Shown: positions 14,129 to 62,633 of the stretch, in pieces
How the letters are laid out: every line of letters starts with the position of its first letter
How positions within the stretch are numbered: position 1 is the stretch's first letter
Origin: Pseudoduganella namucuonensis
Lineage (GTDB): Bacteria > Pseudomonadota > Gammaproteobacteria > Burkholderiales > Burkholderiaceae_D
Direction: 5' to 3'
NCBI RefSeq assembly: GCF_900116645.1
Contig: NZ_FPBO01000001.1
Coordinates: 1 to 64,000, forward strand
DNA: 64,000 bases
The notes under the pieces: generated by a model
What the model was told of the DNA's origin: nothing
Database searches by the model: none
Seen by the model: only the letters and a program-made list of their open reading frames with translations
Program-made: the position numbers and the translations under genes

Positions 14129-15046
14129 ATGCCGCGTCCGCGCGTCAGGGAGGCGGCGCCGCTGCCCATGCGCGACGGCGTCGCGCCCAGCTATCTGTGG
14201 CTGCCGGAAGGGCAATGGCCGGACATGCTGGCCTTCCTGGTGGCGTACTACCCCGCCGTCAGCGAAGCCTCCTGGCGCGAGCGCATGGCGCGCGGCGACG
14301 TGGTGGACGGCGATGGCCGTCCGCTGCAACCATCCAGCCCCTACCGGCGCGGCATGCGCATCTTCTACTACCGCGAACTGGAATTCAAGGAGACCCCCAT
14401 CCCCTTCCAGGAGGAGATCCTGTTCCAGGACGAGCACATCGTGGTGGTGGACAAGCCGCACTTCCTGCCGATGATACCGACCGGCCGCTTCCTGCACGAG
14501 ACGCTGCTGGTGCGGCTGAAAAAGACGCTGGGCATCGAGGAGCTCACGCCCATCCACCGGCTGGACCGGGAAACGGCCGGCGTGGTGGTGTTCTCGTCGA
14601 ATATCGCCACGCGCGGGCGCTACCAGTCCATGTTCCAGCAGCGCGTGGTGCAGAAGGAGTACGAGGCGCTGGCGCCGCGCCTGCACGGGCGCGAGTTCCC
14701 CTTCACCTACCGCAGCCGCATGGTGGACGGCGACAAGTTCTTCACCATGAAGGAGGAGGCGGGCGAGCCGAATTCTGAAACGGTGATCGACGTCGCCGAG
14801 CACGGGTACGCGGGCGGCGACGCCACCCTGTACCGCCTGTGGCCCCACACGGGACGCCAGCACCAGCTGCGGCTGCACCTGGCGTCGCTCGGCATCCCCA
14901 TCGTCAACGACGCCTTCTACCCGGTGGCGCTGCCCTGCAAGCAGGACGACGTGTCGCAGCCATTGAAGCTGCTGGCGCGCGCCATCAGCTTCCCCGATCC
15001 GCTGACGGACGAGATACGGCGCTTCGAAAGCCGCCGCGTCCTTTAG
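14129..15046 (+). CDS. RluA family pseudouridine synthase
   Basis: A 305-residue RNA pseudouridine synthase. The catalytic aspartate is in THE-type motif PIHRLDRETAGVVVFS, and the conserved LWPHTGRQHQLRLHLASLG is present. The N-terminal 90 residues hold an S4-like segment (SWRERMARGDVVDGDG). The target uridine cannot be named; relatives act on 23S rRNA or tRNA. The start at 14129 is two bases after the protease gene. Its stop codon overlaps that of the convergent giant gene by three bases, with no room for a separate terminator. Confidence 0.88.
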   Translation: MPRPRVREAAPLPMRDGVAPSYLWLPEGQWPDMLAFLVAYYPAVSEASWRERMARGDVVDGDGRPLQPSSPYRRGMRIFYYRELEFKETPIPFQEEILFQDEHIVVVDKPHFLPMIPTGRFLHETLLVRLKKTLGIEELTPIHRLDRETAGVVVFSSNIATRGRYQSMFQQRVVQKEYEALAPRLHGREFPFTYRSRMVDGDKFFTMKEEAGEPNSETVIDVAEHGYAGGDATLYRLWPHTGRQHQLRLHLASLGIPIVNDAFYPVALPCKQDDVSQPLKLLARAISFPDPLTDEIRRFESRRVL

Positions 15047-18000
15047 TACACGGCCAGGGCCAGGTTGTCCATCCACAGTCCCGTCCCGCCCGATTGCCCG
15101 ACCAGCGCGACCTCGTCCTCCGGCGCGGCGAAGGCCGCCGCCGGGGGCGGACCCGCCATGGTGCCGTAGCTGAACGCCACAGTGGACGACGCGGCGGAGG
15201 CGTTGCCGGCCCGGTCCAGCACCGCGTTGGCCGCCAGCGCGATGCCGCCGGTGCCGGCGCTCCCGGCGACGGGCGTCAGCAGCGCGTACCAGCTCGAGCC
15301 GCTGCCGGACAGGGAACCGAGCGCGCCGCCGGTCACGGTGAAGTCGGCCAGCGTCAGCCCCGTCACGGTTTCGTTGAACTGAATGTAGACACTGGCGGTC
15401 TGGCCGCTGGTCAGCGTGTAGTCGCCCAGCGTCACGGAAGCCGTGGGGGCCGTCTGGTCCAGCGTGTAGTACTTGGTGCGCGTGGTGCTTTCCTCGGAGT
15501 CGGTGGCCGTGCGCGCGTAGAGGTAGGACGGGCTTCCCGCCGCCACCGTGGCGTTGTAGGTCCAGCTGTTGCCGGACACCGTGGCCGCGTTCCAGGACGT
15601 GCCGCCGTCCACCGACACCTCCACGCGCTCGCCGGCCGCCAGCGCGCCCGTGAAGGTGCCGCCGATGGTTTGCGCCGAGACGTTGGTGATGGTGTCCGTG
15701 TCGCTGCTGCCGCTGTCGATCAGCGTGATGGCGCTGTCCACGGTGGCGGTGGGGCGGATGTTGTTGTAGCTGAACGAGGCGCTGACTGCGGCCGCGCCGC
15801 TGCCGTTGCCCGCCCGGTCGGTGACCGCGCCGCCCGCCACGGTCACCGTGCCGCTGCCGGTGGCGCCGGCGTCCGGCGTCAACAGCGCGTACCAGGTGGC
15901 GCCGCTGCCGGACAGCGCGCCCAGTGTGCCGCCGGTGACGGTGATGTCGGACAGGCTCAGGTCCGTCACGCTTTCGCTGAAGCGGAAATACACGTAGGTG
16001 TTCTGGCCCGGCGTCAGCGTGGTGTCGCTGATGTCGATGTCGACGTTCGGCGCCGCCCGGTCCAGGGTGTAGTACTTGGTCTGCCGCGCGCTGTTCTCGT
16101 ATTCGGTGGCGGTGCGCGCGTACACATAGCCCGGATGCCCGGTCGCGATGGCGCCGCTGTAGCTCCAGCTGTTGCCGGACACGGTGGCCTGGTTCCAGGT
16201 CGTGCCGCCGTCCAGCGACACCTGCACATGCTCGCCCGAGGCCAGCGTTCCCGTGTAGGTGCCGCTGAAGGTCTGCGCCGTGACGTTGGTGATCGCGTCG
16301 CTTCCGCTGGCGCCGCTGTCGATCAGCGCGATGGCGCTGTCCACGGTGGCGGTGGGGCGGATGTTGTCGTAGCTGAACGTGGCGGCGACCGCGCCGGCGG
16401 CGCTGCTGTTGCCCGCCGTGTCCTTGACCGCGCCGCCGGCCAGCGTGATGGAACCACTGCCCGCCGCGCCGCTGGCGGGCGTGAGCAGCGCGTACCAGGT
16501 GTTGCCGCTGCCGGACAGCGCGCCCAGCGTGCCGCCGGTGACGGTGATGTCCGACAAGGCCAGGTCCGTGACCGTTTCGTCGAAGCGGAAATACACATAG
16601 GTGGTCTGGCCCGGCGTCAGGGCGTTGTCGTTCAGCGTGACGGTGACGGTGGGCGCGGTCTGGTCCAGCGTGAAGTACTTGGTCTTGGCCGCGCTGTTTT
16701 CCTGGTCGGTGGCGGTGCGCGCCTGGACATAGCCCGGCCCGCCCGCCGCGACCGCGCCACTGTAGCTCCAGGTGTTGCCCGACACGGTGGCCGTGTTCCA
16801 GCTGCGGCCCGCGTCCAGCGACACTTCCACGCGCTCGCCGCTGGCCAGGGCGCCGCTGTAGGTGCCGCTGAAGGTTTGCGCGCCCGCGTTGGTGATGGCG
16901 TCCGAGGCGCTGGAGCCGGTGTCGGTCAGCGCGATGGCGCTGTCCACGGTGGCGGTGGGGCGGACGTTGTTGTAGCTGAACGCGGCGCCGACCCCGCCGG
17001 CGCCGCTGCTGTTGCCGGCCTTGTCGGCGACGGCGCCGCCGGCCAGCGTCACCGTGCCGGCGCCGGCCGCGCCGCTGGTGGGTGTCAGCAAGGCGGACCA
17101 GCTGGAGCCGCTGCCGGACAGCGCGCCCAGCGTGCCGCCGGTGACGGTGATGTCGTCCAGCGTGAAGCCGGTGACGGCCTCGTTGAAGTGGAAAGACACG
17201 TAGGTGGTCTGGCCCGGCGTGAGGGTGCTGTCGTTGAAGGTCACCGACGCCGTCGGCGCCGTCAGGTCCAGCGTGTAGGACTTGTACTGCGCGGTGCTGT
17301 GGCCATAGGCCGTGGCGGTGCGCGCGTAGACGTAGTCCTCGTTGTCCGCCGCGATGGTCCCGCTGTAGCTCCAGGTGTTGCCGGACACGGTGGCGATGTT
17401 CCAGCTGTGGCTACCGTCGATCGAGACCTCCACATGCTCGCCATCGGCCAGCGTGCCGGTGAACGTGCCGCTGATGGTCTGCGCCGTCGCGTTGGTGATG
17501 GCGTCGGTGGCGCTGCTCCCGCTGTCGGTGATGGCGATGGCGTTGTCCACGCTGGCGGTGGGGGTGATGTTGTTGTAGCTGAACGAGGCGCCGATGGCGT
17601 TGGCCGACGTGCCGTTGCCGGCCGTGTCGGCGGCCGCGTTGCCGGCCAGCGTCACCGTGCCGGTGCCGGCGGCGCCGGCGGTGGGCGTCAGCAAGGCGTA
17701 CCAGTTGGCGCCGCCGCCATTGAGGGCGCCCAGCGTGCCGCCGGTGACGCTGATGTCGTCCAGCGTCAGGCCGCTGACGGTTTCGTTGAAGCGGAAGTAG
17801 ACGTAGGTGGTCTGGCCCGGCGTGAGCGCGGCGTTGTCCACGGTGACGGTGCCGGTGGGGCCGGTCTGGTCCAGCGTGAAGCTCTTGCTCACCCGCGTGC
17901 TGTCGTCGGTGGCGGTGGCCGTGCGCGCGTACACGTAGCCGGGGCCCCCGGCGGCGATGGCGCCGCTGTAGGTCCAGGCGTTGCCGGACACGGTGGCCTG

Positions 18001-21000
18001 GTTCCAGGTGGTGCCGCCGTCCAGCGAGACTTCCACGTTTTCACCCGCGGCCAGCGTGCCGGAGTAGGTGCCGCTGAAGGTCTGCGCGGCGACGTTGGTG
18101 ATGTTGTCGGTGGCGCTGCCGCCGCTGTCGACGAGCGCGATGGCGCTGTTCACCGTGGCGCCGGTGTTCACGGCGGTGGACGTGGACGAGAACGTGGCGG
18201 CGCTGGCCGTGTTGGCGTTGCCGGCGGTGTCGGCGACGGCCGCCGCCGCCAGCTCGATGCTGCCGCTGTCGCTGCGGGACGCCAGCGTCGCCTGCCAGTT
18301 GGCGCCGCTGCCCGTCAGGTTGCTGAGGGTGCCGCCGGTGACGGTGAAGTCCGACAGCTCCAGCCCCGTGACCGCTTCGTTGAAGCGGAAGTACACCGTC
18401 GCGCTCTGTCCCGAAGCGACCGTGGAGCCGCTGAAGGTGATGGCGGCGGCCGGGGCGAACTGGTCCAGCGTGTAGGACTTGCTCTGCCGGGTGCTGTTTT
18501 CATAATCGGTGGCGGTGCGCGCGTAGATGTAGCCCGGATGGCCGGCGGCGATGGCGCCGCTGTAGCTCCACGCGTTGCCGGTCACCGCGGCCTGGTTCCA
18601 GGTGGTGCCGCCGTCCAGCGATACCTCGACCCGTTCACCGGTGGCCAGCGTGCCGGAGTAAGTGCCGCTGAAGGTTTGCGCGCCCGCGTTGGTGATGGCG
18701 TCCGAGGCGCTGGAGCCGGTGTCGGTCAACGCGATGGCGCTGTCCACGGTGGCGGTGGGGCGGATGTTGTTGTAGCTGAACGTGGCGCCGACCGCGCCGG
18801 CGCCGCTGACGTTGCCGGCCCGGTCCAGGACCGCGCCGCCGGCCAGCGTCACCGTGCCGGCGCCGGCCGCGCCGCTGTCCGGCGTCAGCGTGGCGGACCA
18901 GCTGCTGCCGCTGCCGGACAGCGCGCTCAGCGTGCCGCCGGTGACCGTGATGTCCGACAAGGCCAGGTCGGTGACGGCCTCGTTGAAGCGGAAGTAGACG
19001 GTGGTGGTCTGGCCCGGCGTCAGCGAGCCGTCGTTCAGCGTGACGGTGGCGGTGGGCGCCGTCTGGTCCAGCGTGAAGGACTTGGTTTTGACCGTGCTGT
19101 TTTCGTAGCCGGTCGAGGTTCGGGCCGAGACATAACCCGCGCCGTTGGCGGCGACGGCGCCGCTGTAGGTCCAGCTGTTGCCGGACACGGTGGCCTGGTT
19201 CCAGCTGGTGCCGCCGTCCAGCGATACCTCGACCCGTTCGCCGGTGGCCAGGGTGCCGGAGAAGGTGCCGCCGAAGGTCTGCGCGGCGGCGTTGGTGATG
19301 TTGTCGGTGCCGCTGCTTCCGCTGTCGGTGAGCGTGATGGCGCTGTCGACGGTGGCGGTGGGACGGTGGTTGTTGTAGCTGAAGGTGGCGCTGGCCGCGC
19401 CGGCCGTGCCGCTGTTGCCGGCGGTGTCGGTGACGGCGTTCGCCGCCAGCGTGACCGAGCCGGCGCCCGCGCTGCCGCTGGTGGGCGTCAGCGTGGCGTA
19501 CCAACTGGTGCCGCCGCCGTTGAGCGCGCCCAGCGTGGCGCCGGTGACGGTGACGTCGTCCAGCGTCAGGCCGGTGACGGCCTCGCTGAAAGTGAAATAC
19601 ACATAGGTGGTCTGGCCCGGCGTCAGCGCGGTGTTGTCCAGCGTGACGGTGGCGGTGGGGGCGGTCTGGTCCAGCGTGAAGTAATTGTATTGCGCCGTGC
19701 TGTGCCCGTAGTCCGTGCCGGTGCGCGCGTACACATAGCTGGCGTGGCCGGGCGCGATGGCGCCGCTGTAGGTCCAGGCGTTGCCGTTGACGGTGGCCGC
19801 GCCCCAGGTGTGGCCGTCGTCCAGCGAGACTTCGACCCGTTCGCCGGTGGCGAGGGTGCCAGAGTAGGTGCCGCTGAAGGTCTGGGCCGAGACGTTGGTG
19901 ATGCGGTCCGTGCCGCTGGCGCCGGTGTCGATCAGCGTGATGCCGCTGTCCACGGTGGCGGAGGGGCGGATGTTGTCGTAGGTGAACGTGGCGGCCACCG
20001 CGTTCGCCGCGCCGCTGTTGCCGGCCGTGTCGGCCACGGCGCCGGCGGCCAGCGTGATCGTTCCCGCGCCCGCCGCGCCCAGGGTCGGCGTCAGCTGCGC
20101 GTACCAGCTGGAGCCGCCGCCGTTGAGCGTGCCCAGCGTGCCGCCGGTGACGGTGATGTCGTCCAGCGTCAGGCCGTTCACCGCCTCGTTGAAGCGGAAG
20201 TAGACATAGGTGGTTTGGCCCGGCGTCAGGGCGCTGTTGTCCAGCGTGACCGTGGCGGTGGGGACGGTCTGGTCCAGCGTGTAGGACTTGTATTGCAGCG
20301 CGCTGTTCTCGGACGCGGTGGCGGTGCGCGCGTACACATAGCCGGAATTGGCGGTGATGGCGGCGCTGTAGGTCCAGGCGCTGCCGGTAACGGTGGCCGC
20401 GTTCCAGGTGTAGCCGTCGTCCAGCGAGACCTCGACCCGTTCGCCGGCGGCCAGCGTGCCGGAATAGGTGCCGCTGAAGGTCTGGGCCGCGACGTTGGTG
20501 ACGCGGTCCGTGGCGCTCGTGCCGGTGTCGATCAGCGTGATGGCGCCGTCCACGGTGGCGGTGGGGCGCACGTTGTTGTAGCCGATGGCCGCGCTGGCGC
20601 CGGCGGTGCTCGCGTTCCCCGCCCGGTCCATCACCGCGTTGGCCGCCAGCGTCACCGTGCCCGCGCCCGCGCCGCCGCTGGTGGGCGTGAACAGCGCGTA
20701 CCAGTTGGCGCCGCCGCCGCCCAGCGCGCCCAGCGTGCCGCCGGCGACGGTGATGTCGTCCAGCGTCAGGCCCGTGACGGCCTCGTTGAAGTTGAAGTAG
20801 GCGTAGGCGGTCTGGCCGGGCGTCAAGTTCTCGTTGCCGAAGCTGACGGTGGCGGTGGGCGCGGCCTGGTCCAGCGTGTAGTAGCGGTATTGCGCGGTGC
20901 CGTGCGACTCCGCCGTGGCGGTGCGCGCGTACACATAGCCGGGCGCGCCGGCGGCGACGGCGCCGCTGTGGCTCCAGGCGTTGCCGGACACGCTGGCCTG

Positions 21001-22161
21001 GTTCCAGCTGGTGCCGCCGTCCAGCGACACCTCGACCCATTCGCCGCTGGCCAGCGTGCCGGTGTATGTGCCGCCGAACGTCTGGGCCGCGACGTTGGTG
21101 ATCCCGTCCGTGCCGCTCGTGCCGCTGTCGACGATCGTGATGGCGCTGTCTATCGTCGCCACGCCGGGCGTGTTGTTGTAGGTGAAGGAGGCGCTGGCGG
21201 ACGCGCCGCCGTTGCCCGCCGTGTCGGTGACGGCGTCGGCGGCCAGCACGATGCTGCCGCTGCCCGGCGCGCCGCTGTCCGGCGTCAAGGTCGCGGTCCA
21301 GTAGTTGCCGCCGCCCGAGAGGCCGGAGAGCACGCCGCCGGTGACCGTGAAGTCCGACAGGGCCAGGCCCGACACCGCCTCGCCGAACTGGAAGTAGACG
21401 GTGGTGCTCTGGCCCGGCGCTATCGTGCCGCGCTCCAGCGTGATGGTGGCGGCGGGCGCCGCCGCGTCGTAGGTGTAGGCCTGGCTCTGGGAGGCGGAGT
21501 GGTTGCCCGAGGCGTCGCTGACGCGGGCCACCAGCACGCCGCCGGCGGCGATGGTGGCGCTGTATTGCCAGGTGTTGGCGGAGGCCAGCGCGGTGTGCCA
21601 GGTGGCGCCGTTGTCCAGCGAGACCTCCACGAACTCGCCGCCGGCCAGCGTGCCGCTGTACGTGCCGCTGAACGTTTGCGCCGCCACGTTGGTGACGTGG
21701 TCGCTGGCGCTGTCGCCGCTGTCGACCATGGCGATGGCGCCGCCGACGGCGGCCGACACCGTGCCGGCCGCCGTCGTGGTGAGCGCCAGCTTGAGCGTGT
21801 CCTTGATTCCAGCGTGGTTGTTGCCGTACAGGTCTTGCAGCACGCCTGCGGCCATCGTCACGCTGTAGCCGTGGTTGGGCAGCAGATCCGCCAGCGGCTT
21901 GATGGTGACGGTGTTGCCGCTGATGGTCACCTGCGCGCCGTCGGCGACGCTGATGGTGCGCGTGTCGGTGGCGCCCACGATGCGGGTTTTCAGCGTGCCG
22001 TCGTACGCCATGTAGGTCTGCGTGGCGCCGTCGCTGATGACGATGTTGCCGACGCCGGCGGCGATGGCTTCACTGAAGACGAGGACGATGTCGCCACCAG
22101 GGCTGATGGCGCCGGAGGTGGACGAGGACAGGGTGGGAGGGGTCTGGTCGGCGGTTGGCAT
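15043..22161 (-). CDS. giant Ig-like repeat protein 1 (2372 residues)
   Basis: Residues 1-130 form a module of the SbsA-like Ig type (IVLVFSEAIAAGVGNIVISD, ending in LKLALTTTAAG) without a signal peptide. Then follow eleven tandem units of about 201 residues. Each unit pairs a domain with VEVSLDGGTTW and YARTAT phrases with a bacterial Ig-like (Big_12-type) domain with LTPGQTTYVYFRFNEAVTGL, DITVTGGTLGAL and DTAGN. The C-terminal 40 residues are different and end in GLWMDNLALAVY. Unlike its two neighbours it has no GGxGxD array. It is probably a secreted or surface adhesin; the export route is unclear because no secretion genes are nearby. No Shine-Dalgarno sequence precedes the start, which was fixed by alignment with the two paralogues. 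Confidence 0.88.
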   Translation of the reverse strand: MPTADQTPPTLSSSTSGAISPGGDIVLVFSEAIAAGVGNIVISDGATQTYMAYDGTLKTRIVGATDTRTISVADGAQVTISGNTVTIKPLADLLPNHGYSVTMAAGVLQDLYGNNHAGIKDTLKLALTTTAAGTVSAAVGGAIAMVDSGDSASDHVTNVAAQTFSGTYSGTLAGGEFVEVSLDNGATWHTALASANTWQYSATIAAGGVLVARVSDASGNHSASQSQAYTYDAAAPAATITLERGTIAPGQSTTVYFQFGEAVSGLALSDFTVTGGVLSGLSGGGNYWTATLTPDSGAPGSGSIVLAADAVTDTAGNGGASASASFTYNNTPGVATIDSAITIVDSGTSGTDGITNVAAQTFGGTYTGTLASGEWVEVSLDGGTSWNQASVSGNAWSHSGAVAAGAPGYVYARTATAESHGTAQYRYYTLDQAAPTATVSFGNENLTPGQTAYAYFNFNEAVTGLTLDDITVAGGTLGALGGGGANWYALFTPTSGGAGAGTVTLAANAVMDRAGNASTAGASAAIGYNNVRPTATVDGAITLIDTGTSATDRVTNVAAQTFSGTYSGTLAAGERVEVSLDDGYTWNAATVTGSAWTYSAAITANSGYVYARTATASENSALQYKSYTLDQTVPTATVTLDNSALTPGQTTYVYFRFNEAVNGLTLDDITVTGGTLGTLNGGGSSWYAQLTPTLGAAGAGTITLAAGAVADTAGNSGAANAVAATFTYDNIRPSATVDSGITLIDTGASGTDRITNVSAQTFSGTYSGTLATGERVEVSLDDGHTWGAATVNGNAWTYSGAIAPGHASYVYARTGTDYGHSTAQYNYFTLDQTAPTATVTLDNTALTPGQTTYVYFTFSEAVTGLTLDDVTVTGATLGALNGGGTSWYATLTPTSGSAGAGSVTLAANAVTDTAGNSGTAGAASATFSYNNHRPTATVDSAITLTDSGSSGTDNITNAAAQTFGGTFSGTLATGERVEVSLDGGTSWNQATVSGNSWTYSGAVAANGAGYVSARTSTGYENSTVKTKSFTLDQTAPTATVTLNDGSLTPGQTTTVYFRFNEAVTDLALSDITVTGGTLSALSGSGSSWSATLTPDSGAAGAGTVTLAGGAVLDRAGNVSGAGAVGATFSYNNIRPTATVDSAIALTDTGSSASDAITNAGAQTFSGTYSGTLATGERVEVSLDGGTTWNQAAVTGNAWSYSGAIAAGHPGYIYARTATDYENSTRQSKSYTLDQFAPAAAITFSGSTVASGQSATVYFRFNEAVTGLELSDFTVTGGTLSNLTGSGANWQATLASRSDSGSIELAAAAVADTAGNANTASAATFSSTSTAVNTGATVNSAIALVDSGGSATDNITNVAAQTFSGTYSGTLAAGENVEVSLDGGTTWNQATVSGNAWTYSGAIAAGGPGYVYARTATATDDSTRVSKSFTLDQTGPTGTVTVDNAALTPGQTTYVYFRFNETVSGLTLDDISVTGGTLGALNGGGANWYALLTPTAGAAGTGTVTLAGNAAADTAGNGTSANAIGASFSYNNITPTASVDNAIAITDSGSSATDAITNATAQTISGTFTGTLADGEHVEVSIDGSHSWNIATVSGNTWSYSGTIAADNEDYVYARTATAYGHSTAQYKSYTLDLTAPTASVTFNDSTLTPGQTTYVSFHFNEAVTGFTLDDITVTGGTLGALSGSGSSWSALLTPTSGAAGAGTVTLAGGAVADKAGNSSGAGGVGAAFSYNNVRPTATVDSAIALTDTGSSASDAITNAGAQTFSGTYSGALASGERVEVSLDAGRSWNTATVSGNTWSYSGAVAAGGPGYVQARTATDQENSAAKTKYFTLDQTAPTVTVTLNDNALTPGQTTYVYFRFDETVTDLALSDITVTGGTLGALSGSGNTWYALLTPASGAAGSGSITLAGGAVKDTAGNSSAAGAVAATFSYDNIRPTATVDSAIALIDSGASGSDAITNVTAQTFSGTYTGTLASGEHVQVSLDGGTTWNQATVSGNSWSYSGAIATGHPGYVYARTATEYENSARQTKYYTLDRAAPNVDIDISDTTLTPGQNTYVYFRFSESVTDLSLSDITVTGGTLGALSGSGATWYALLTPDAGATGSGTVTVAGGAVTDRAGNGSGAAAVSASFSYNNIRPTATVDSAITLIDSGSSDTDTITNVSAQTIGGTFTGALAAGERVEVSVDGGTSWNAATVSGNSWTYNATVAAGSPSYLYARTATDSEESTTRTKYYTLDQTAPTASVTLGDYTLTSGQTASVYIQFNETVTGLTLADFTVTGGALGSLSGSGSSWYALLTPVAGSAGTGGIALAANAVLDRAGNASAASSTVAFSYGTMAGPPPAAAFAAPEDEVALVGQSGGTGLWMDNLALAVY
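15150..21760 (-). repeat. tandem 603-bp repeats, eleven units
   Basis: A marker (GTCCACGGTGGCGGTGGGGC and variants) recurs at 15736, 16339, 16942, 17545, 18148, 18742, 19345, 19948, 20548, 21148 and 21742. Spacings are 603 bases mostly, with 600 or 594 in four cases, all multiples of three. The copies are close enough at DNA level to recombine with each other. Confidence 0.92.
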
Positions 22162-22192
22162 GATGGCGGAAAAACGCGCGGATGGAGTCCAT

Positions 22193-22204
22193 TATCATAC
22201 CAAA
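22193..22204 (-). promoter_or_regulatory. extended -10 promoter of giant gene 1
   Basis: On the minus strand TTTGGTATGATA shows an extended -10 (TGGTATGAT), with its edge 32 bases before the start codon. The same element occurs before the two paralogues. No good -35 is visible. The leader of about 25 bases lacks a Shine-Dalgarno sequence. Confidence 0.65.
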
Positions 22205-22253
22205 GATGCATCTTAATTGCGCGTTTGCAACCCCCTCCGGGCGTGGAAACAAC

Positions 22254-22277: not shown

Positions 22278-22282
22278 CGGGA

Positions 22283-28200: not shown

Positions 28201-29476
28201 GCAGCGTGCCGTTGGTCACGCGCGCCACGATGGTGTCGCTGGCGCCGATCGTGCCGCTATAGGACCAGGCGCCGGCGGTGGCGCCGGCCGTGTGCCAGGT
28301 CGTGCCGCCGTCCAGCGACACCTCGACGCTCTCGCCGGCGGCCAGCGTGCCGGTATAGGTGCCGGTCACCGTTTGCGCGGCGGTGTTGGTGATGTAGTCG
28401 GTGGCGCTGGATCCGCTATCGATGAAATGGATGGCGCCGCCGACGGCGGCGTCGGGCGCGCCGAGCACGTTGTAGCTGAAGCTTTTGGCGCTGGATGCGG
28501 CCGCCGGTCCCGTGTTGCCGGCCAGGTCGGCCACGCCGCCGGCCGCCAGCGCGATGCCGCCGGCGCTGTTGGCGCCGGCGCCGGCGGTGGGCGTCAGCGT
28601 CGCGGTCCAGGTGAGGCCGCCGTCGGCGCTGGTGAAGTCGCCCAGGGCGCCGCCGGTCACGGTGAAGTCGGCCGCTTCCAGGCCGGTCACCTTCTCGGCG
28701 AAGGTGACGGTGACGGTGGTGGTCTGGCCGGCCGCCAGGCTGTCGCTGGCCAGCGCGATGGCGGGAACGGCGGGAGCGGCGGTGTCGAGCACGAAGCCGT
28801 GGCTTTGCGCGCTGGTCGACAGGCCGGCCGCGTTGGCGACGCGCGCCATCACGGTGCCGCTGTCGGCGATGGTGGTGGAGTAGCTCCAGCTGTTGCCGGA
28901 GACGGCCGCCTGCTGCCAACTGGCGCCGCCGTCAAGCGACACCTGCACCATCTCGCCGGCGCCCAGCGTGCCGCTGTAGCTGCCGCTGAACACCTGGCTG
29001 GTGGCGTTGGTGATGTAGTCGGTGGCCAGCACGCCGGTGTCGGTCATGCCGATGGCGCTGTTCACGGTGGCCGTGGGCGCGGCGGCGGCCTCGGTGGTGA
29101 AGGCCAGCTTGGTGCTGTCCGCCAGGCCCTTGTAGCTGTTGCCCGTCAGGTCCCGCAGCACGCCGGTGGCCATTTGCACGCTGTATTTCACGCCCGCCTT
29201 CAGGTCGCCGGTCAGGTTGATGGTGACCGTGTTGCCGTCGATGGTGACCTGCGGGTCGGTGATGCTGATGGTGCGGGTGTCGGTCGCGCCCACCACCCGG
29301 GTGCGCAGCACACCGCCGCTGCTCATATAGGTCTGGGTGGCGCCATCGGTGATGACAATATTGCCACTGCCGGCGGCGATGGCTTCGCTGAAGGTCAGGA
29401 CGATGTTGGCGCCGGCGGCGATGGTGCCGGTGGTGGACGAGGCGAGGGTGGGGGCGGTCTGATCGACTGTAGGCAT
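22283..29476 (-). CDS. giant Ig-like and RTX-like repeat protein 2 (2397 residues)
   Basis: It starts MPTVDQTAPTLASSTTGTIA, aligned with its neighbours, and has no signal peptide. Residues 1-115 are the SbsA-like module (IVLTFSEAIAAGSGNIVITD). Residues 115-1300 hold divergent Ig-like domains (SLAAGQTTTVTVTFAEKVTG type). Residues about 1375-1460 carry a short GGxGxD block (LDGGGDGDTFTIGG). More Ig-like and SbsA-like domains follow to about 2080, and a second GGxGxD block of ten 19-residue units covers about 2115-2300. A tail ends VRVQTAAGLAVHLDTA. The order Ig - GGxGxD - Ig - GGxGxD suggests an internal duplication or fusion. GGxGxD arrays bind calcium and usually mark type I secretion substrates; none of the transporter genes are in the window. 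Adhesin is the likely role (inference). Confidence 0.88.
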   Translation of the reverse strand: MPTVDQTAPTLASSTTGTIAAGANIVLTFSEAIAAGSGNIVITDGATQTYMSSGGVLRTRVVGATDTRTISITDPQVTIDGNTVTINLTGDLKAGVKYSVQMATGVLRDLTGNSYKGLADSTKLAFTTEAAAAPTATVNSAIGMTDTGVLATDYITNATSQVFSGSYSGTLGAGEMVQVSLDGGASWQQAAVSGNSWSYSTTIADSGTVMARVANAAGLSTSAQSHGFVLDTAAPAVPAIALASDSLAAGQTTTVTVTFAEKVTGLEAADFTVTGGALGDFTSADGGLTWTATLTPTAGAGANSAGGIALAAGGVADLAGNTGPAAASSAKSFSYNVLGAPDAAVGGAIHFIDSGSSATDYITNTAAQTVTGTYTGTLAAGESVEVSLDGGTTWHTAGATAGAWSYSGTIGASDTIVARVTNGTLHSASASQTYVYDATTPTFTTTLSDTSLKAGETATITITFSEAVVGLETSDFSVSGCTISSLGSNDGGVTWTATVTPTANASGSGSVTLSGAVATDLAGNGATGAQVCNFDYDTAAPATPTIELSDAVLGSGETATVTVTFAEKVTGLAATDFTISNGTLGTFTSVDQGITWTATLTPATGIGEGSITLNSGTVSDLAGNTGPAAASSAIGFSYNAPAAPTAVVTNLHFFNQASGVSPYYTNSSSQQIGGTYDGTLASGESIEVSVDNGVSWGTATLLANNFFQFTPTISNSGTLIARVTNGDTSTTPVSHSYTYDTTLPTLLNVVFGDDSLKAGQTTQVTFTFSEQLSDGFTPAFSQAHGTLGDLQTSDHITWTATLTPEAGYTGAAGLVLQSGSARDLAGNVAESSTHNFTVDTVAPAPALTISDNTLATGGTATVTLSFAEPITDTPVASDFTVVGGTLGAFTTSNEGFTWTATLTPTSGATGSGSVTLQAGSISDQAGNTGPASATAVTFDYDTQTPSLTADTLDISADTGELATDFVTKTASQTVTGSFSGTVYAPTGAKIEVSADGSNWTLATVDNDTHTFSATGVTLSSGTGTLQARLTDSSGATSTQSHSYTLDTTAPPSPTGVTFELYGGSDSGESGDDGVTNDSAPTFLLNVHSAGLAADTVMRIYDVTTGTSVGTHTLSAAEAAEVNFTMQISALTAGTHVLELRAEDLAGNSSSGASVTVIEDYTGPTLTPTSMTEGDTISAETTTITLTASEYLAIDDTHGFSLSNGSDTRTIAFGSGPGDYASFDSGTNLVTITLGDALEHGSDYTLSVHGSPLLDKAGNTLAVDTEVLHFSTLSTVSAPSAYVSSYPSFFGSGAAINTITGALSAALEAGESVQYTVNGGSSWSTGSTSGSTWTLNSVTLSGGGAIGLRVVDGSGNVGGNEELGVASGYTVYLGDGYGGSLDADTMRYLHAGDGSDTISTTGDADGYLDGGGDGDTFTIGGDVTGAIDGGDGNDTISISAIPTGSGMVDGGGDTDTLLFNASGQSYDLSSAVAYLSSFETISMGSGNTLSVSAAAAAALTSTGVLTIDGGAGNTLNLDTSWAELGADGGYASYFNASHEVTLEVATSLTTNLGTSGLAAPTLTLDEDTANASDGDSGTDHVTGNNSLTVGDVTAAHWRYSTNGGGSWTVGSGSTIGLGDGTYAAGTILVQQYNSVGNESGSGTLGYALTVDSTDPGSLASISPTLYGGSDSGAEPDDLITNDMAPTLSINLAGASLEDGDTLQVYDLSTSTVVGLHTVAASEVASGASAFTMQIDALEAGSHQLVLRAEDLAGNTGVHSATPLAFTLDDTAPELSASSIAPNETVDYDTRSLTLTFSEALDISSVNGFSVTNGSDTHEIVFESGDPDEYLSYNADTHTVTIQLGENLWSGYTYEVKIFSSSLGDLAGNYLEVETTLFSFSVDEQPVLAPNAPSISFTDTSYATGSGSGSDLVTSNASIAVADLYSTYWDYSTDGGTHWTTITRGSGSTGSFTAPDGEYADGDILVRQYDDTDHYSNGAQFGTAVTIDTTEPTGYVSSYPSFEGTGSPIATISGSLSAALGSGEYVEYTLNGGGSWSQASVSGATWTVSGATVSSGGAIGLRVTDTAGNIGSHGDDAAGYTVYIGDGYGGTFDAATMPHLRAGAGNDTINTAGNADGYLDGGGDSDTFTVSGSVSGTIDGGAGNDTLTITGATSGTIHGSGGVDAITLNGAVSGDIDGGDGADTILVYATLEAAGGIIGGEGDDIVTVFSLMSGAMTGGAGNDLLNVDGVTAGSIDGGDGNDQMTLTNTVSGIVDSGGDNDILTIAGVVTGNVSGGGGDDTIGLAAIPTGSVGGGSGTDTLIFNTTSQDITLSTLLTHLFSFEKLALGNSNTLRVGASDITTLSSGYAEITGSTGAHLYLSGQWVEVDVVDADYDTYALGSATVRVQTAAGLAVHLDTA
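22575..23128 (-). repeat. 57-bp repeats encoding 19-residue GGxGxD units (protein 2)
   Basis: Ten units of the pattern DGGxGNDTxxxxGxVSGxI, nine of 19 residues and one of 21. Each unit has a single GGxGxD turn, unlike the nine-residue spacing of standard RTX repeats. Confidence 0.8.
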
Positions 29477-29507
29477 GATGGCGGAGAGGGGAGCGGGCGC
29501 AATCCAC

Positions 29508-29519
29508 TATCATAACAAA
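29508..29519 (-). promoter_or_regulatory. extended -10 promoter of giant gene 2
   Basis: TTTGTTATGATA on the minus strand contains the extended -10 TGTTATGAT, with its edge 32 bases before the start, the same distance as in gene 1. The leader again lacks a Shine-Dalgarno sequence; both leaders end in CCGCCATC before the ATG. Confidence 0.65.
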
Positions 29520-29552
29520 CCGGCACTATTTTTTTCATTTAGCAAACAATTT

Positions 29553-29591
29553 TGGCGCTGCAAACAACGAATACCCTTGGTTACAGCGCCA
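29553..29591. other. dyad symmetry between giant genes 2 and 3
   Basis: TGGCGCTG pairs with CAGCGCCA across a 23-base loop, in the 196-base gap between the stop of gene 3 and the start of gene 2. It could be a terminator for gene 3 (no clear U tract) or an operator upstream of the gene 2 promoter. Confidence 0.35.
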
Positions 29592-29672
29592 GTTGCCCGT
29601 TTCAGCCGAAATCCTGCTGCACCCGCGCGCCCGTCCGCAATTGCACGCTGCCGTTACCGGGGCCGCCGGACA

Positions 29673-32600
29673 TCAGGCATCCCACTCGATGTCCACGCCC
29701 GCGCCGAAGTGGGTGTAGACGTGCAGTACGGCGCCGGAAGACAGGTGGATGTAGGACACCCAGCCGAGCAGGTCGAGCGAGATGTGGTTGCTCCAGGCGC
29801 TGGCCTCCAGGTAGAGGGTGTCGGTGCTGTTGCCGTCGATCTTCAGCGTGTCGGTGTCGGACCAGGCCATCACGTCGGCGGGCGTCAGCGTCATGCTGTT
29901 GCCGCTGCCCATGCTGATGTTTTCGAACGACAACAACTCGCCCAGTTGCGCGGTCGCGATCGACAGGCCTGTGCCGCTGAGCACCAGGGTGTCGGTGCCG
30001 CTGCCGCCGTCGACGGTGCCGGTCGGCAGGCTGCTCAGAGAAATGGTGTCGGCGCCGCTGCCGCCCCGGACGGTGCCGCTGACCGCGCCGTTGAGGACGA
30101 TGGTGTCGTCGTTGGCGCCGCCGGTGACGTCGCCGGCGACCGAGCCAGAGAAGGTCAGCGTGTCGTTGTCGTTGCCGCCGTCGACGTCGCCGCCGACGGT
30201 AGTGGAGAAGGTCAACGTGTCGTTGCCGTCGCCGCCGTTGGCGCTGCCGCTGACAAGGCCGGAGAAGGCGATGGTATCAGCGCCATCGCCGCCCGTGATC
30301 GTGCCGGCGGTGGATAGCGCGCCGTTGACGGTGATGTTGTCGGCGCCTTCGCCACCGTCGATGGTGCCGCTGACCGCTTCCATGAGCGTGATCGCGTCGG
30401 TGCCGCTGCCGCCGCTGACGGCGCCGCTGACAGCGCCGTTGAAAACGAGGGTGTCGTTGTCGGTGCCGCCGGTGATCTCGCCGCTGACCGTGCCGGAGAA
30501 GGTCATGCCGTCGTCGCCGTCGTCGCCGTCGACGGTGCCGCTGACCGCGCCCGTGACCTCTATCACATCATTGCCGTCGCCGCCGTCGATGGCGCCGGAG
30601 ACGGCGCCGGTGATGCTGACGGTGTCGGCGCCGCCGCCGCCGTCGAGGTAGCCGGCCGCGTTGCCGCTGGTGCTGATGGTGTCGTTGCCGTAGCCGGCAT
30701 GCAGGTGGGGCATGGTGGCGGCGTTGAAGGTGCCGCCGTAGCCGTCGCCAACGTATACGGTGTAGCCGGAGGAGATATCCAGGTCGCCATTGCCGCCGAT
30801 GTTGCCGGCCGTGTCGGAAACGCGCAGACCGAAGGCCCCGCCCTCGGCGAGCTGCAAGCCGCTGAGTGACCAGGCGCTGCCATCGATGGTGCCGACGCGT
30901 GTCCAGTTGACGCCGTTGTCGGTGGTGTACTCGACGAACTCGCCGCTGCCGAGCGCTGCGCTGAGGCTGCCCGTCAGGGCGTTGATGACGACGCCGCCGA
31001 GACCGAAGAAGCTCGGGTAGCTGGACACGTAGGCGGAAGGGGCCGCGGTGTCGACGGTCAGCGCCTGCTCCAGGGAGGCATACTCGCTGATATTGCTAGG
31101 GTCGTCGTACTGGCGCACCTTCGGGTAGCCGGTGTAGGAAGCGCCGCCTTCCAGCGTAAAGGTGGCGCCGCCGTTGGCGATGGTGAGCGCATGCCAGTCA
31201 TCGTCCTCGCTGATCGTGTATTCCGCGTTGGCGGCGGTCAGGCCGCTGACGGTGATCAGGCCGTTGCTGGTGATGTAGTCGCTGCCCGTGCCGCTGCCGG
31301 TGGCGTTGGCGGTGTCGGTGAACGACAGCGTCGGCGTGGACGGAATGGACGCGGTGGTGAAGGTGGCCAGCGTGCTGCCCTGGGCGTATCCGATGTTGCC
31401 TGCGTAATCGGCCAGGTCGCCGTAGTTGATCGTGACCGTGTAGGTGGTGCCGGCGCTCAGCGTGATTGGCGGGGTGATGATGATGGAGTTGCCGCTTTGC
31501 GTGAAGCCGCCCGATTCGCCGGAGATTTCCTGGACCACTTGCGAGGCGGTCTGGATGCTGAAGGTGTGGCTGCCGTGGAGGTAGATCTCCTCGTCGAAGG
31601 TCAGCGTGATGGTCGAGTTGAGATTGACGCCGGTCGCGTTGGCGGTCGGCGACGTGCTTTGCAGCGTGGGCGCGGTGGTGTCCACGGTGATGCTCAGACC
31701 GGAGTCGCTGACCGTGCCGGTGTTGCCCGCCGCGTCGGCCGCGCGCAGTTTCAGCACGTGCGCGTCGCCGTCGCCGGCGTTCGAACTCAGTTGGTCGAGC
31801 GTGACGCTGATGGCGCCTTGCCCGGAGAGGTCGGCCGAAGTCAGCGTGTAGGTGCCGACCACTTCGTCCCCCTTGCCGGTATCGATGATGTCGATGATGT
31901 CGCCGGCCGCGAATCCGCCCGCCAGCGGCAGGCTGAAGGTGACGGTCGGCGTGGCGTCGCTGGTGACGCGGTCCGTGGTGCTGGCGCCGGTGTCCGAAGC
32001 GGTCAGCAGGGCCGGCGTCTTGCTGGACATCGAGCCCGGCGCGCTGGTGTCCAGCGTGTAGGCCTGGCTCTGGGCCGTCGAGTACAAGCCGGCGGCGTTG
32101 CCGACGCGCGCCATCACGCTGCCGCTGGCGGAGATGGTGGCGGCATAGCTCCAGATGTTGCTGGTGGCCGTGGCCGTGTTCCAGGTGGTGCCGCCGTCCA
32201 GCGACACCTCGACGAATTCGCCGCTGGTCAAGGTGCCGGTGTAGCTGCCGCTGAAACTCTGGCTGGTGGCGTTGGTGATGTAGTCGGTATCGCTGGAGCC
32301 GCTCTCGGTGATGGCGATGGCGCTGCCGACGGCCGCGGCCGGGGTGGTGGCGGTGTTGTAGCTGAACTCGGCGCCGCCCGACGTGTTGGCCGGGCCGGTG
32401 TTGCCGGCGATGTCGGTCACCGAACTCGCGGACAGCGTGACGCTGCCGGAACCGCTGGCGACGCCAGCGGTCGGCGTCAGCGTCGCGGTCCAGGTGAAGC
32501 CCAGGTCGGCCGTGTTGAATTCGCCCAGCGTGCCGCCGGACACGGAGAAATCGGTGTTGGCCAGGCCCGTCACTTTCTCGGTGAAGGTCACGGTCACGGC

Positions 32601-35600
32601 GGTGGTCTGGCCGGCCGTCAGGCTGTCGTCGGTCAGGACGATGGTGGGCGTGGCGGGCACGGTGGTGTCCAGCGTGTAGGCCTGGCTCTGGGCCGTCGAG
32701 TACAGGCCGGCGGCGTTGCCGACACGCGCCATCACGCTGCCGCTGGCCGAGATGGTGGTGGCGTAGCTCCAGGTGTTGCTGGTGGCCGTGGCGTGGTTCC
32801 AGCTGGTGCCGCCGTCCAGCGACACTTCGACGAATTCGCTGCCGTTCAGGGTGGCGTTGTAGCTGCCGCTGAAGCTCTGGCTGGTGGCGTTGGTGATGTA
32901 GTCGGAGTTGCTGGAGCCGCTCTCGGTGATGGCGATGACGCTGCCGACGGCTGCCGTCGGCGCGGCGGCGGTGTGGTAGTTGAACGTGGTGGCGCTGGAT
33001 GCGGCGGCCGGGCCGGTGTTGCCGGCGATGTCGGCCACCGTGCTGGCGGACAGTGCGACGCTGCCCAAGCCGTTGGCGACGCCGGCGGTCGGCGTCAGCG
33101 TGGCGGTCCAGGTGATGCCGGAGTCGCTGGTGCTGAACGCGCCCAGGGTGCCGCCCGACACGGTGAAGTCGGTGTTGGCCAGGCCCGTCACTTTTTCGGC
33201 GAAGGTCACGGTCACGGTGGTGGTCTCGTCGATCGTCAGGTTTTCGGCGCCGAGCGCGATGGTGGGTGTGGCGGGCGCGGTGGTGTCCAGCGTGTAGGCC
33301 TGGCTTTGTGCCGTCGAGTGCAGGTTGGCGGCGTTGGCGACGCGCGCCATCACGCCGCCGCTGGCGGAAATGGTGGCGGCGTAGCTCCAGGCGTTGCTGG
33401 CGGCGGTGGCCGGGTTCCAGGTGGTGCCGCCGTCCAGCGACACCTCGACGAATTCGCCGCCGGCCAGGGTGCCGGTGTAGCTGCCGCTGAAACTCTGGCT
33501 GGTGGCGTTGGTGATGTAGTCGGAGTTGCTGGAGCCGCTCTCGGTGATCGCGATGGCGCTGCCGACGGCCGCCGTCGGCGCGGTGGCGGTGTCGTAGCTG
33601 AACGTGGTGGCGCTGGACGCGGCGGCCGGGCCGGTGTTGCCGGCGCTGTCGGTCACCGCGCTTGCCGACAGGGTGACGCTGCCCGAACCGTTGACGACAC
33701 CGGCGGTCGGCGTCAGGGTGGCGGTCCAGGTGAAGCCCAGGTCGGCCGTGCTGAATTCGCCCAGCGTGCCGCCGGTCACGGTGAAGTCGGTGTTGGCCAG
33801 GCCAGTCACTTTCTCTGCGAAGGTCACGGTCACGGCGGTGGTCTGGCCGGCGGTCAGGCTGCTGTCGCCGAGCGCGATGGTGGGTGTGGCGGGCGTGGTG
33901 GTATCCAGCGTGTAGGCCTGGCTTTGTGCCGTCGAGTGCAGGTTGGCGGCGTTGGCGACGCGCGCCATCACGCTGCCGCTGGCGGAAATGGTGGCGGCGT
34001 AGCTCCAGATGTTGCTGGCGGCGGTCGCCGTATTCCAGGTGGCGCCGCCGTCCAGCGATACCTCGACGAATTCGCCGCTGGCCAAGGTGCCGGTGTAGCT
34101 GCCGCTGAAACTCTGGCTGGTGGCGTTGGTGATGTAGTCGGAGTTGCTGGAGCCGCTCTCGGTGATCGCGATGGCGCCGCCGACGGCCGCCGTCGGCGCG
34201 GTGGCGGTGTTGTAGCTGAAGGCGGTGGCGCTGGACGCGGCGGCCGGACCGGTATTGCCGGCGACGTCGGTCACCGCGCTTGCCGACAGGGTGACGCTGC
34301 CCGAGCCGTTGACGACGCCGGCGGTCGGCGTCAGGGTGGCGATCCAGGTGATGCCCTCGTCGGCGGTGCTGAACGTCCCCAGCGTGCCACCGGACACGGT
34401 GAAGTCGGCGCTCGCCAGGCCAGTCACTTTCTCGGCGAAGGTCACGGTCACGGTGGTGGTCTGGCCGGCGGTCAGGCTGTCGTCGGTCAAGGCGATGGTC
34501 GGCGCGGTGGGCGCGGCGGTATCCAGCGTGTAAACCTGGCTTTGTGCCGTCGAATGCAGGTTGGCGTCGTTGCTGACGCGCGCCATCACGCCGCCGCTGG
34601 CCGAGATGGTGGCGGCGTAGCTCCAGGCGTTGTCGGCGGCCGTGGCCGTGTTCCAGGTGGTGCCGCCATCCAGCGAAACCCCGACGAATTCGCCGCTGGC
34701 CAAGGTACCGGTGTAGCTGCCGCTGAAACTCTGGCTGGTGGCGTTGGTGATGTAGTCCGTGTCGCTGCTACCGCTCTCGGTGATGGCGATGACGCCGTCG
34801 ACGACCGCCGACGGCGCCGCGGCGGTGTCATAGCTGAAGGCGGTGGCGCTGGACGCGGCGGCCGGGCCGGTGTTGCCGGCGATGTCGGTGATGGAACCGG
34901 CGGACAGGGTGACGCTGCCCGAGCCGTTGGCGACGCCGGAAGTGGGCGTCAAGGTGGCGGTCCAGGTGATGCCCTGGTCGCTGGTGGTGAATGCGCCCAG
35001 CGTCCCGCCGGACACGGTGAAGTCGGCGGCGTCCAGGCCGCTCACTTTTTCGGCGAAGGTCACGGTCACGATGCTGGTCTGGCCCGCCGTCAGGCTGCCG
35101 TTGCTCAGGACGATGGTGGGCGTGACGGGGGGGGTGATGTCGAGCACGAAATCATGACTCTGCGCGGTGGAAGACACGCCGGCGGAGTTGATGACGCGCG
35201 CCATGACGCTGCCGCTGGCGGAGATGGTGTTGGCGTAGCTCCAGCTGTTGCCGGACACGGCCGCCTGCTGCCACGTGGCGCCGCCGTTCAGCGACACTTG
35301 CACGACCTCGCCGCCGGCCAGGGTGCCGGTGAAGGTGCCGCTGAACACCTGGCTGGTGGCGCTGGTGATGTAGTCGGTGGCCAGCGCGCCGGTGTCGGTC
35401 ATGCCGATCGCGCTGTCGATGGCGGCGCTGGGCGCGGCGGCGGCTGACGTCGTGAAACTCAGCCTGGTGCTGTCCGTCAGGCCCTTGAAGTCGTTGCCGG
35501 CCAAGTCTTCCAGTACGCCCGTGGCCATCTGCACGCTGTATTTGCGCCCGGCGCCCAGGTCGCTGCCCAGGTCGATCGTCACCACGTTGCCATTGATGCT

Positions 35601-35834
35601 CACCTCGGGACCGGTGATGCTGATGGTGCGGGTGTCGGTGGCGCCGACGATGCGGGTGCGCAGCAGACCGCCGCTCATATAGGTCTGGGTGGCGCCGTCG
35701 GTGATGACAATGTTGCCGCTGCCCGCCGCCATGGCCTCGCTGAAGGTCAGGACGATGTTTCCGCTGGTGCCGATGGTGCCGGAGGTGTACGAGGCGAGGG
35801 TGGGCATGCTCAGGTCGGGCGTGGAGGTGGACAT
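29673..35834 (-). CDS. giant Ig-like and RTX-like repeat protein 3 (2053 residues)
   Basis: No signal peptide. Residues 1-125 are the SbsA-like module shared with proteins 1 and 2 (IVLTFSEAMAAGSGNIVITD). Five full units of 206 residues and a sixth, partial one follow, each with VEVSLDGGTTWNTAT, VMARVANAANLHSTAQSQ and SLTAGQTTAVTVTFAEKVTG. From about residue 1265 there are other Ig-like and SbsA-like domains (TITLTFDEEIYLHGS). Residues about 1730-1955 are twelve 19-residue GGxGxD units, and the protein ends LHVYTHFGAGVDIEWDA. The GGxGxD array points to calcium binding and type I secretion (established for RTX proteins; inferred here). Likely an adhesin. It is the first gene of the block, 138 bases from xth. 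Confidence 0.88.
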   Translation of the reverse strand: MSTSTPDLSMPTLASYTSGTIGTSGNIVLTFSEAMAAGSGNIVITDGATQTYMSGGLLRTRIVGATDTRTISITGPEVSINGNVVTIDLGSDLGAGRKYSVQMATGVLEDLAGNDFKGLTDSTRLSFTTSAAAAPSAAIDSAIGMTDTGALATDYITSATSQVFSGTFTGTLAGGEVVQVSLNGGATWQQAAVSGNSWSYANTISASGSVMARVINSAGVSSTAQSHDFVLDITPPVTPTIVLSNGSLTAGQTSIVTVTFAEKVSGLDAADFTVSGGTLGAFTTSDQGITWTATLTPTSGVANGSGSVTLSAGSITDIAGNTGPAAASSATAFSYDTAAAPSAVVDGVIAITESGSSDTDYITNATSQSFSGSYTGTLASGEFVGVSLDGGTTWNTATAADNAWSYAATISASGGVMARVSNDANLHSTAQSQVYTLDTAAPTAPTIALTDDSLTAGQTTTVTVTFAEKVTGLASADFTVSGGTLGTFSTADEGITWIATLTPTAGVVNGSGSVTLSASAVTDVAGNTGPAAASSATAFSYNTATAPTAAVGGAIAITESGSSNSDYITNATSQSFSGSYTGTLASGEFVEVSLDGGATWNTATAASNIWSYAATISASGSVMARVANAANLHSTAQSQAYTLDTTTPATPTIALGDSSLTAGQTTAVTVTFAEKVTGLANTDFTVTGGTLGEFSTADLGFTWTATLTPTAGVVNGSGSVTLSASAVTDSAGNTGPAAASSATTFSYDTATAPTAAVGSAIAITESGSSNSDYITNATSQSFSGSYTGTLAGGEFVEVSLDGGTTWNPATAASNAWSYAATISASGGVMARVANAANLHSTAQSQAYTLDTTAPATPTIALGAENLTIDETTTVTVTFAEKVTGLANTDFTVSGGTLGAFSTSDSGITWTATLTPTAGVANGLGSVALSASTVADIAGNTGPAAASSATTFNYHTAAAPTAAVGSVIAITESGSSNSDYITNATSQSFSGSYNATLNGSEFVEVSLDGGTSWNHATATSNTWSYATTISASGSVMARVGNAAGLYSTAQSQAYTLDTTVPATPTIVLTDDSLTAGQTTAVTVTFTEKVTGLANTDFSVSGGTLGEFNTADLGFTWTATLTPTAGVASGSGSVTLSASSVTDIAGNTGPANTSGGAEFSYNTATTPAAAVGSAIAITESGSSDTDYITNATSQSFSGSYTGTLTSGEFVEVSLDGGTTWNTATATSNIWSYAATISASGSVMARVGNAAGLYSTAQSQAYTLDTSAPGSMSSKTPALLTASDTGASTTDRVTSDATPTVTFSLPLAGGFAAGDIIDIIDTGKGDEVVGTYTLTSADLSGQGAISVTLDQLSSNAGDGDAHVLKLRAADAAGNTGTVSDSGLSITVDTTAPTLQSTSPTANATGVNLNSTITLTFDEEIYLHGSHTFSIQTASQVVQEISGESGGFTQSGNSIIITPPITLSAGTTYTVTINYGDLADYAGNIGYAQGSTLATFTTASIPSTPTLSFTDTANATGSGTGSDYITSNGLITVSGLTAANAEYTISEDDDWHALTIANGGATFTLEGGASYTGYPKVRQYDDPSNISEYASLEQALTVDTAAPSAYVSSYPSFFGLGGVVINALTGSLSAALGSGEFVEYTTDNGVNWTRVGTIDGSAWSLSGLQLAEGGAFGLRVSDTAGNIGGNGDLDISSGYTVYVGDGYGGTFNAATMPHLHAGYGNDTISTSGNAAGYLDGGGGADTVSITGAVSGAIDGGDGNDVIEVTGAVSGTVDGDDGDDGMTFSGTVSGEITGGTDNDTLVFNGAVSGAVSGGSGTDAITLMEAVSGTIDGGEGADNITVNGALSTAGTITGGDGADTIAFSGLVSGSANGGDGNDTLTFSTTVGGDVDGGNDNDTLTFSGSVAGDVTGGANDDTIVLNGAVSGTVRGGSGADTISLSSLPTGTVDGGSGTDTLVLSGTGLSIATAQLGELLSFENISMGSGNSMTLTPADVMAWSDTDTLKIDGNSTDTLYLEASAWSNHISLDLLGWVSYIHLSSGAVLHVYTHFGAGVDIEWDA
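29965..30646 (-). repeat. 57-bp repeats encoding 19-residue GGxGxD units (protein 3)
   Basis: Twelve units such as DGGDGNDVIEVTGAVSGTV and DGGNDNDTLTFSGSVAGDV; eleven have 19 residues, one has 21. Each has one acidic GGxGxD turn and one VSG turn. The block lies just before the C-terminal tail. Confidence 0.82.
32030..35440 (-). repeat. tandem 618-bp repeats, five full and one partial unit
   Basis: The marker GTTGGTGATG (once GCTGGTGATG) recurs at 32271, 32889, 33507, 34125, 34743 and 35361, exactly 618 bases apart each time (206 codons). The middle copies are nearly identical over long stretches, which suggests recent duplication or gene conversion. Confidence 0.93.
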
Positions 35835-62066: not shown

Positions 62067-62091
62067 GTACGCCAAGTCTTAGGAGGAATAT

Positions 62092-62604: not shown

Positions 62605-62633
62605 CTCATTAACCCTACACTCAAGGAAGAGAC

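Follow-up and report, generated by a model that had tools for sequence, protein, structure and literature searches.

Three tandem giant Ig-like proteins of Pseudoduganella namucuonensis as candidate type I-secreted adhesins with an MpAFP-like solenoid in two of them

Introduction

Three giant genes in tandem, P1, P2 and P3, in the genome of Pseudoduganella namucuonensis probably encode calcium-folded adhesins of the MpAFP/SiiE kind that arose by tandem amplification and are secreted by a type I secretion system (T1SS); from sequence comparison and structure modelling, we put the probability of this reading at about 0.75. The genes lie in the 64,000-nucleotide stretch analysed here (the window; positions 1-64,000 of contig NZ_FPBO01000001.1, assembly GCF_900116645.1). 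The assembly is a draft of 103 contigs with 5.36% contamination, and the carrying contig, labelled C38, is 501 kb long. Three minus-strand open reading frames (ORFs) of 2372 (P1), 2397 (P2) and 2053 (P3) codons occupy positions 15043-35834. An initial annotation, made from the sequence alone, had described three adhesin-like giant paralogues of differing build, and this description is supported, the coordinates, lengths and common strand being reproduced.

Architecture of the proteins

P1-P3 have a pI of about 4.1, are rich in Thr, Ser, Gly and Ala and contain zero to two Cys residues. They begin with the common module that was noticed initially: over the first 125 residues, identity to P1 is 66% for P2 and 60% for P3. 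No hydrophobic leader was seen by eye in the N-terminal module of P3. A structure model of this module (pTM 0.62) gives only generic matches to immunoglobulin (Ig) folds at low TM-scores; the N-terminal domains are modelled as Ig-like, and SiiE chains top the Foldseek list (E 3.4e-6, with a TM-score of just 0.26). When the module is used as a query against its own genome, one weak extra match appears on contig C102 (E 7.9e-9), in an RTX protein whose repeats are of the classical kind, and the matches of full-length P3 are confined to the carrying contig.

The N-terminal module is followed by Ig-like arrays, on which Pfam agrees with the initial description: Big_12, Big_13 and Big_5 lie far over cut-off in all three proteins, with Big_12 E-values of 4.2e-225, 7.6e-112 and 4e-120. 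P3 contains five full units of 206 residues, with a DNA identity of 84-91% among units 2-5 and of 78-80% between unit 1 and these, and the units of P1 share about 74-77%. The anatomy given initially therefore holds for the N-terminal module and the arrays; the initial annotation had missed that P2 and P3 carry a C-terminal module, that P2 has another copy of it inside the chain and that P1 has none.

The C-terminal module and type I secretion

The last 130 residues align across the 25 members of alignment A3, namely P2, P3, the internal copy in P2 and 22 proteins of relatives. In the 22 relatives examined at the locus, all 25 orthologous proteins end in the module (those of G007 and G067 included, and that of G070 counted as one gene split over two contigs, with its N-terminal part on one and its C-terminal part adjoining the pseudouridine synthase gene on the other), and so do seven of seven further family proteins that were picked. 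GGxGxD turns recur in P2 and P3 with a period of 19 residues and are modelled as a beta-solenoid, with PF00353 (HemolysinCabind) under its cut-off; P1 has no GGxGxD-type repeats. The coils fit the pattern xGTGNDxuxuGGxuxGxux, whose 19-residue spacing, G, D and hydrophobic positions are those of region IV of MpAFP (PDB 3p4g). In public records, the orthologues P0054 and P0055 are labelled "glycosyl hydrolase" or "DUF3060", which looks like misannotation via weak repeat matches.

No secretion gene is linked to the locus, as had been claimed: contig C38 has no ABC_membrane and no TolC-family match, the whole genome having 11 and 18. T1SS genes are present elsewhere, where it had been proposed to look for unlinked exporter sets. 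Contig C32 carries a PrtD-type ABC transporter gene (772.4 bits, cut-off 510.15) together with HlyD and TolC genes, contig C10 carries an HlyB-like ABC transporter gene (629 bits, under its 725.55 cut-off, with a weak C39 domain match) together with an HlyD gene, and additional TolC-family genes over cut-off lie on C11 and C41. Directly ahead of the HlyB-like ABC and HlyD genes of C10 lies the gene of an ALTTAQ-repeat protein (PF20080; L141:28-5297), a candidate for a separate T1SS substrate. The claim that LapG-type control is lacking is also upheld, because PF06035 has no match in the whole genome and a control genome is positive; LapG control of release was accordingly rejected, and release of the LapA type is unlikely. 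G086, a genome from a different family of the same order, has four RTX proteins with the module (L183:1790-15482, C12; E 1.5e-20 to 1.4e-10) around one pair of PrtD-type ABC and HlyD genes, and this arrangement favours a T1SS role of the module. Weak A3 matches near PrtD-type T1SS genes in G001, G012 and G064 were rejected as family members, these proteins having a different N-terminal domain and different ends and at least the G001 match being internal and partial. In each of the PrtD-type T1SS loci of the genus (L178, L179, L180, L184 and L185), there is a large protein of different build, whose start, judged by eye, we take to be DUF4214-like.

Several observations weigh against calcium-folded, type I-secreted adhesins of the MpAFP kind. 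On the C-terminal module, every curated T1SS-signal or RTX model stays below its cut-off: on the 25 A3 members, NCBIfam gives 11 families with a single member each, the relevant matches being RTX_toxin (E 0.0026) and Ca_rpt_SMc04171 (E 0.0033), HemolysinCabind appears in six members with a best E of 0.016, and Pfam AFP_2 (PF18815) scores 13.6 bits on P3 against a cut-off of 25. The solenoid sequence is composition-biased (HMMER bias 42 bits). The internal copy in P2 means that the position of the module is not always terminal, and both tandem proteins of G001 likewise have two module matches each. Because the orthologue L035 has a long solenoid built mainly on multiples of 18 residues, for which no PDB sequence match was found at E <= 0.01, and because the turns number zero to two in most orthologues, the MpAFP-like form with its 19 residues may have arisen by convergence. 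Finally, HlyB-like and PrtD-type ABC transporters occur in 22 and 21 of the 22 locus-positive relatives and in 63 and 65 of the 71 genomes of the genus; since both types are near-universal, phyletic profiling is uninformative and cannot name the cognate T1SS.

The altered ending of P1

P1 carries a 36-residue tail in place of the C-terminal module, and the stop codons of P1 and the convergent pseudouridine synthase gene overlap. Loss of the module is the simplest account of this ending. No convincing relative of the tail was found among 5.8 billion proteins, of which 7990 were scored as candidates; P0004 and P0005, its sole matches besides P1, were discarded, their own ends being unlike the P1 tail by eye. 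In the 120 genomes compared (P. namucuonensis included), ten other matches are weak (E 0.006-0.04, 16-19 bits). From its sequence, P1 is probably export-impaired, or served by an unrecognised signal or by the new tail.

The odds are about even that P1 is a decaying, export-dead remnant, in which a deletion removed the module up to the stop codon of the neighbouring gene and the rest is now drifting; this would be compatible with secretion and calcium-dependent folding of P2 and P3. The presence of the module in every orthologue read and a tail without convincing relatives fit such decay, as does the high dN/dS between units (the median is 0.625 for 55 pairs in P1 and 0.516 for 10 pairs in P3). 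However, the 2372 codons are free of stops and frameshifts, although an antisense frame that is likewise open makes this a weak pseudogene test, GC3 is 95.6% and the leader is retained. The median synonymous divergence between units (0.317) also exceeds the nonsynonymous one (0.21), the two being approximately equal in 2 of 10 adjacent pairs. Functional diversification of the three paralogues, one of two suggestions of the initial annotation, is plausible from their sequences; P1 may instead be degenerating.

Leaders, repeats and phase variation

The other suggestion, a phase-variable set, receives no support from slippage tracts. At thresholds of runs of at least eight and units repeated at least five times, 22 kb contain only one G8 (position 35127, inside P3) and one (CGC)6, and the leaders contain none. 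We consider it unlikely that the three genes form a phase- or length-variable, antigen-like family switched via slippage or unit recombination. The 618-bp tandem units, the longest exact repeats (P3, 92 bp; P1, 67 bp) and the wide length range of the relatives' proteins (770-2448 residues in 24 measured; G070 not whole) point towards such variation, but no exact repeat shared between the three genes exceeds 32 bp, and no recombinase was noticed among the part of the flanking ORFs that was scanned.

The elements TATGAT, TATGAT and TATTAT lie 32-33 nt upstream of the ATGs of P1, P2 and P3, and a TATNAT- or TACNAT-like element was found by eye in the leaders of 24 of the 25 relatives' genes, the exception being L153. 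The matching promoters reported initially can thus be seen by eye, but a sigma-70 consensus scan finds the P2 site alone (one site against a shuffle mean of 1.2). Because the scan does not exceed chance, the case for a leader element rests on its conservation.

The draft state of the assembly and its contamination, together with the repeats, raise the question of whether misassembly of a repetitive region explains the absent end of P1 or the triplet itself. This is quite improbable: exact repeats do not exceed 92 bp and the pairwise DNA identity of P1-P3 is at most about 76%, so that a repeat collapse is unlikely.

The locus in relatives

The N-terminal module was searched in the 120 genomes at E <= 1e-8, and all 22 positive congeners were read at the locus. 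This homologue check, which had been proposed initially, finds matches in 24 genomes, namely P. namucuonensis itself, 22 of the 71 relatives labelled "same genus" and G085, with its matches located away from xth. The figure of 22 of 71 is a lower bound, as L066 (Massilia terrae) has a more diverged homologue beside xth; in the search of genomes for the C-terminal module, often only the best 36 candidates of a genome were scored, and misses there are no proof of absence. The gene sits in the relatives between xth (exodeoxyribonuclease III) and the pseudouridine synthase/M48 genes; xth and the pseudouridine synthase gene are also the two flanking genes of P1-P3, which had been called housekeeping genes. 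One gene occupies the site in 19 of the 22 relatives and two in the other three (G001, G043 and G046), and three are found only here. Named carriers are Pseudoduganella flava, P. ginsengisoli, P. rivuli and Massilia sp. Root351 and Root418. In G029, 1.28 kb separates xth from the adhesin gene (L149:6530-7814), a stretch that, by eye, we take to resemble a DUF433/PIN-type toxin-antitoxin pair.

Eighteen unoccupied loci were read, a further 31 match-less congeners being left out. In 14 of them, 0-144 bp separate the stop codon of xth from that of the synthase gene, and the other four (G008, G039, G048 and G055) hold other genes in 1.4-1.9 kb. The xth-synthase junction accepts other cargo, because in three of these relatives (G055, G008 and G039; L163, L166 and L168) about 1.4 kb at the site resembles, by eye, genes for a LysR-type regulator and a SnoaL-like protein.

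Presence of the gene was mapped, with 500 shuffles, on a tree that was built from six flanking genes by a quick method and has 40 tips. It needs eight changes, at least seven of them forced by starred branches, against a shuffled mean of 13.6, and it is clustered, a count as low being reached in 0 of 500 shuffles for "present" and in 1 of 500 for "absent"; by itself this tree cannot separate gain from loss. The main groups of the N-terminal module tree agree with those of the flank tree by eye, and P1-P3 form one clade in the former (support 85, under the starred level). GC3 of P1-P3 is 92-96%, close to that of the more GC3-rich neighbours (neighbours 73-94%).

The arrangement had been likened to an insertion of a surface-protein locus, and presence does differ among relatives. 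A recent insertion by horizontal transfer is nevertheless highly improbable. The absence of the gene from all 18 negative loci read, most of them with closely spaced flanking stops, and the eight changes on the tree are what such an insertion would leave, but the identical site is used in 22 congeners, the two trees agree, P1-P3 group together, GC3 is not foreign and presence is clustered. In our reading, the locus is old, has been lost repeatedly and has been amplified locally.

Comparison with known systems

The gene of MpAFP (also MpIBP) in Marinomonas primoryensis stands alone between flanks common to its homologues, with T1SS genes not adjacent (PMC3492233), and the locus described here likewise lies between conserved flanks without adjacent T1SS genes. 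P2 and P3 share with MpAFP the order of Ig-like extender, 19-residue solenoid and C-terminal region, in their case a putative secretion region, but differ in having Big_12-type units of about 200 residues, a Big_5-type N-terminal module and three tandem genes, and in lacking the ice-binding Thr array. Ice binding by the solenoid as in MpAFP has next to no likelihood despite the equal coil length and fold, because the Thr at coil position 3 is found in 1 of 13 coils of P3 and 0 of 10 of P2 against 10 of 10 in MpAFP. Asx occupies coil position 5 in 7 of 13 coils of P3 and 7 of 10 of P2.

SiiE of Salmonella, which shares Ig arrays and heads the structural matches of the N-terminal domains, is a substrate of the T1SS encoded in SPI4 (PMC5466336), whereas no T1SS is linked here. 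LapA-type adhesins are giant proteins with Ig-like repeats and an RTX-like C-terminal region (PMC3492233). They share these traits with the present proteins, for which LapG is absent, no retention module was recognised and the solenoid repeats have 19 residues instead of nine. BapP of Pseudoalteromonas tunicata is a large, calcium-dependent Ig-like adhesin for which type I secretion is also inferred; in contrast to the proteins described here, a Sec signal is predicted for it and its neighbouring genes point to a T1SS (PMC12153261). Giant1-5 of Apilactobacillus kunkeei are likewise encoded by consecutive giant surface-protein genes whose number varies among relatives, but they belong to a lactic acid bacterium, have alpha-helical repeats in Giant1-3 and contain other domains (PMC12863079).

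Features of the window

Coordinates are collected in Table 1. The N-terminal part of the pseudouridine synthase ORF is probably non-coding, because it overlaps an ORF for an M48 peptidase. Type I-E-like CRISPR genes (Cas3, Cse1 and CT1975-like) begin close to the right end of the window (57022-63689).

Table 1 Features of the P1-P3 locus (positions in the window)
Feature	Position	Strand	Basis
Pseudouridine synthase, conserved flank, converges on P1	13532..15046	+	
P1, giant Ig protein without C-terminal module, 2372 aa	15043..22161	-	ORF + Pfam
P1 36-residue tail in place of C-terminal module	15046..15153	-	
P1 array, 11 Ig units of ~600 bp (~200 aa)	15154..21723	-	repeat comparison
P1 N-terminal module	21787..22161	-	
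-10-like TATGAT before P1	22194..22199	-	by eye
P2, giant Ig/solenoid protein, 2397 aa	22283..29476	-	ORF + Pfam
P2 C-terminal cap, putative T1SS secretion end	22286..22546	-	
P2 beta-solenoid, 10 coils matching the pattern, one 38-residue step	22547..23179	-	
P2 internal second copy of C-terminal module	24836..25654	-	
P2 N-terminal module	29102..29476	-	
-10-like TATGAT before P2	29509..29514	-	by eye + sigma-70 consensus scan
P3, giant Ig/solenoid protein, 2053 aa	29673..35834	-	ORF + Pfam
P3 C-terminal cap, putative T1SS secretion end	29676..29951	-	
P3 beta-solenoid, 13 coils, period 19 (one coil of 21)	29952..30698	-	
P3 tandem 618-bp Ig units (approximate bounds)	32300..35440	-	repeat comparison
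P3 N-terminal Big_5-type module, aa 1-125	35460..35834	-	
-10-like TATTAT before P3	35868..35873	-	by eye
xth (exodeoxyribonuclease III), conserved flank	35972..36742	-	

Proposed mechanism and implications

P1-P3 would belong to an RTX-type adhesin family that has its native site here in the Massilia/Duganella/Pseudoduganella group. The protein plan would run from an Ig-like N-terminal module free of a signal peptide through a tandem Ig extender and, in P2 and P3, a calcium-folded beta-solenoid of 19-residue coils to a cap. The cap would be recognised by a T1SS encoded elsewhere in the genome, and the chain would be exported cap-first in an unfolded form and fold outside on calcium, so that the Ig domains and the solenoid may be displayed and attach to surfaces, matrix or other cells. 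With a solenoid of the MpAFP region IV build that is devoid of the Thr array, the ligand, if any, would not be expected to be ice. One ancestral gene would have been duplicated at least twice in this lineage, and P1 would have lost its C-terminal module. A bolder picture, which we regard as distinctly unlikely, is that P1 works as a surface protein through its tail or with the help of P2 and P3, that the calcium-ordered, Asp/Ser/Gly-lined solenoid face of P2 and P3 grips another regular lattice such as a polysaccharide or mineral, and that all three form one layered adhesive coat.

The triplet, the loss of the module from P1 and the occurrence in this group of an MpAFP-type solenoid that lacks the ice-binding residues seem to be new; in the parts of the literature returned by our searches, no publication was recognised as dealing with this locus. 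The finding connects a protein family of Massilia-like bacteria, devoid of the ice-binding residues, through its fold to the ice-binding domain of MpAFP, and the role of such a solenoid without ice becomes testable. The xth site also provides a natural series of zero, one, two and three genes for the amplification of giant adhesins and for the fate of a copy without its export module.
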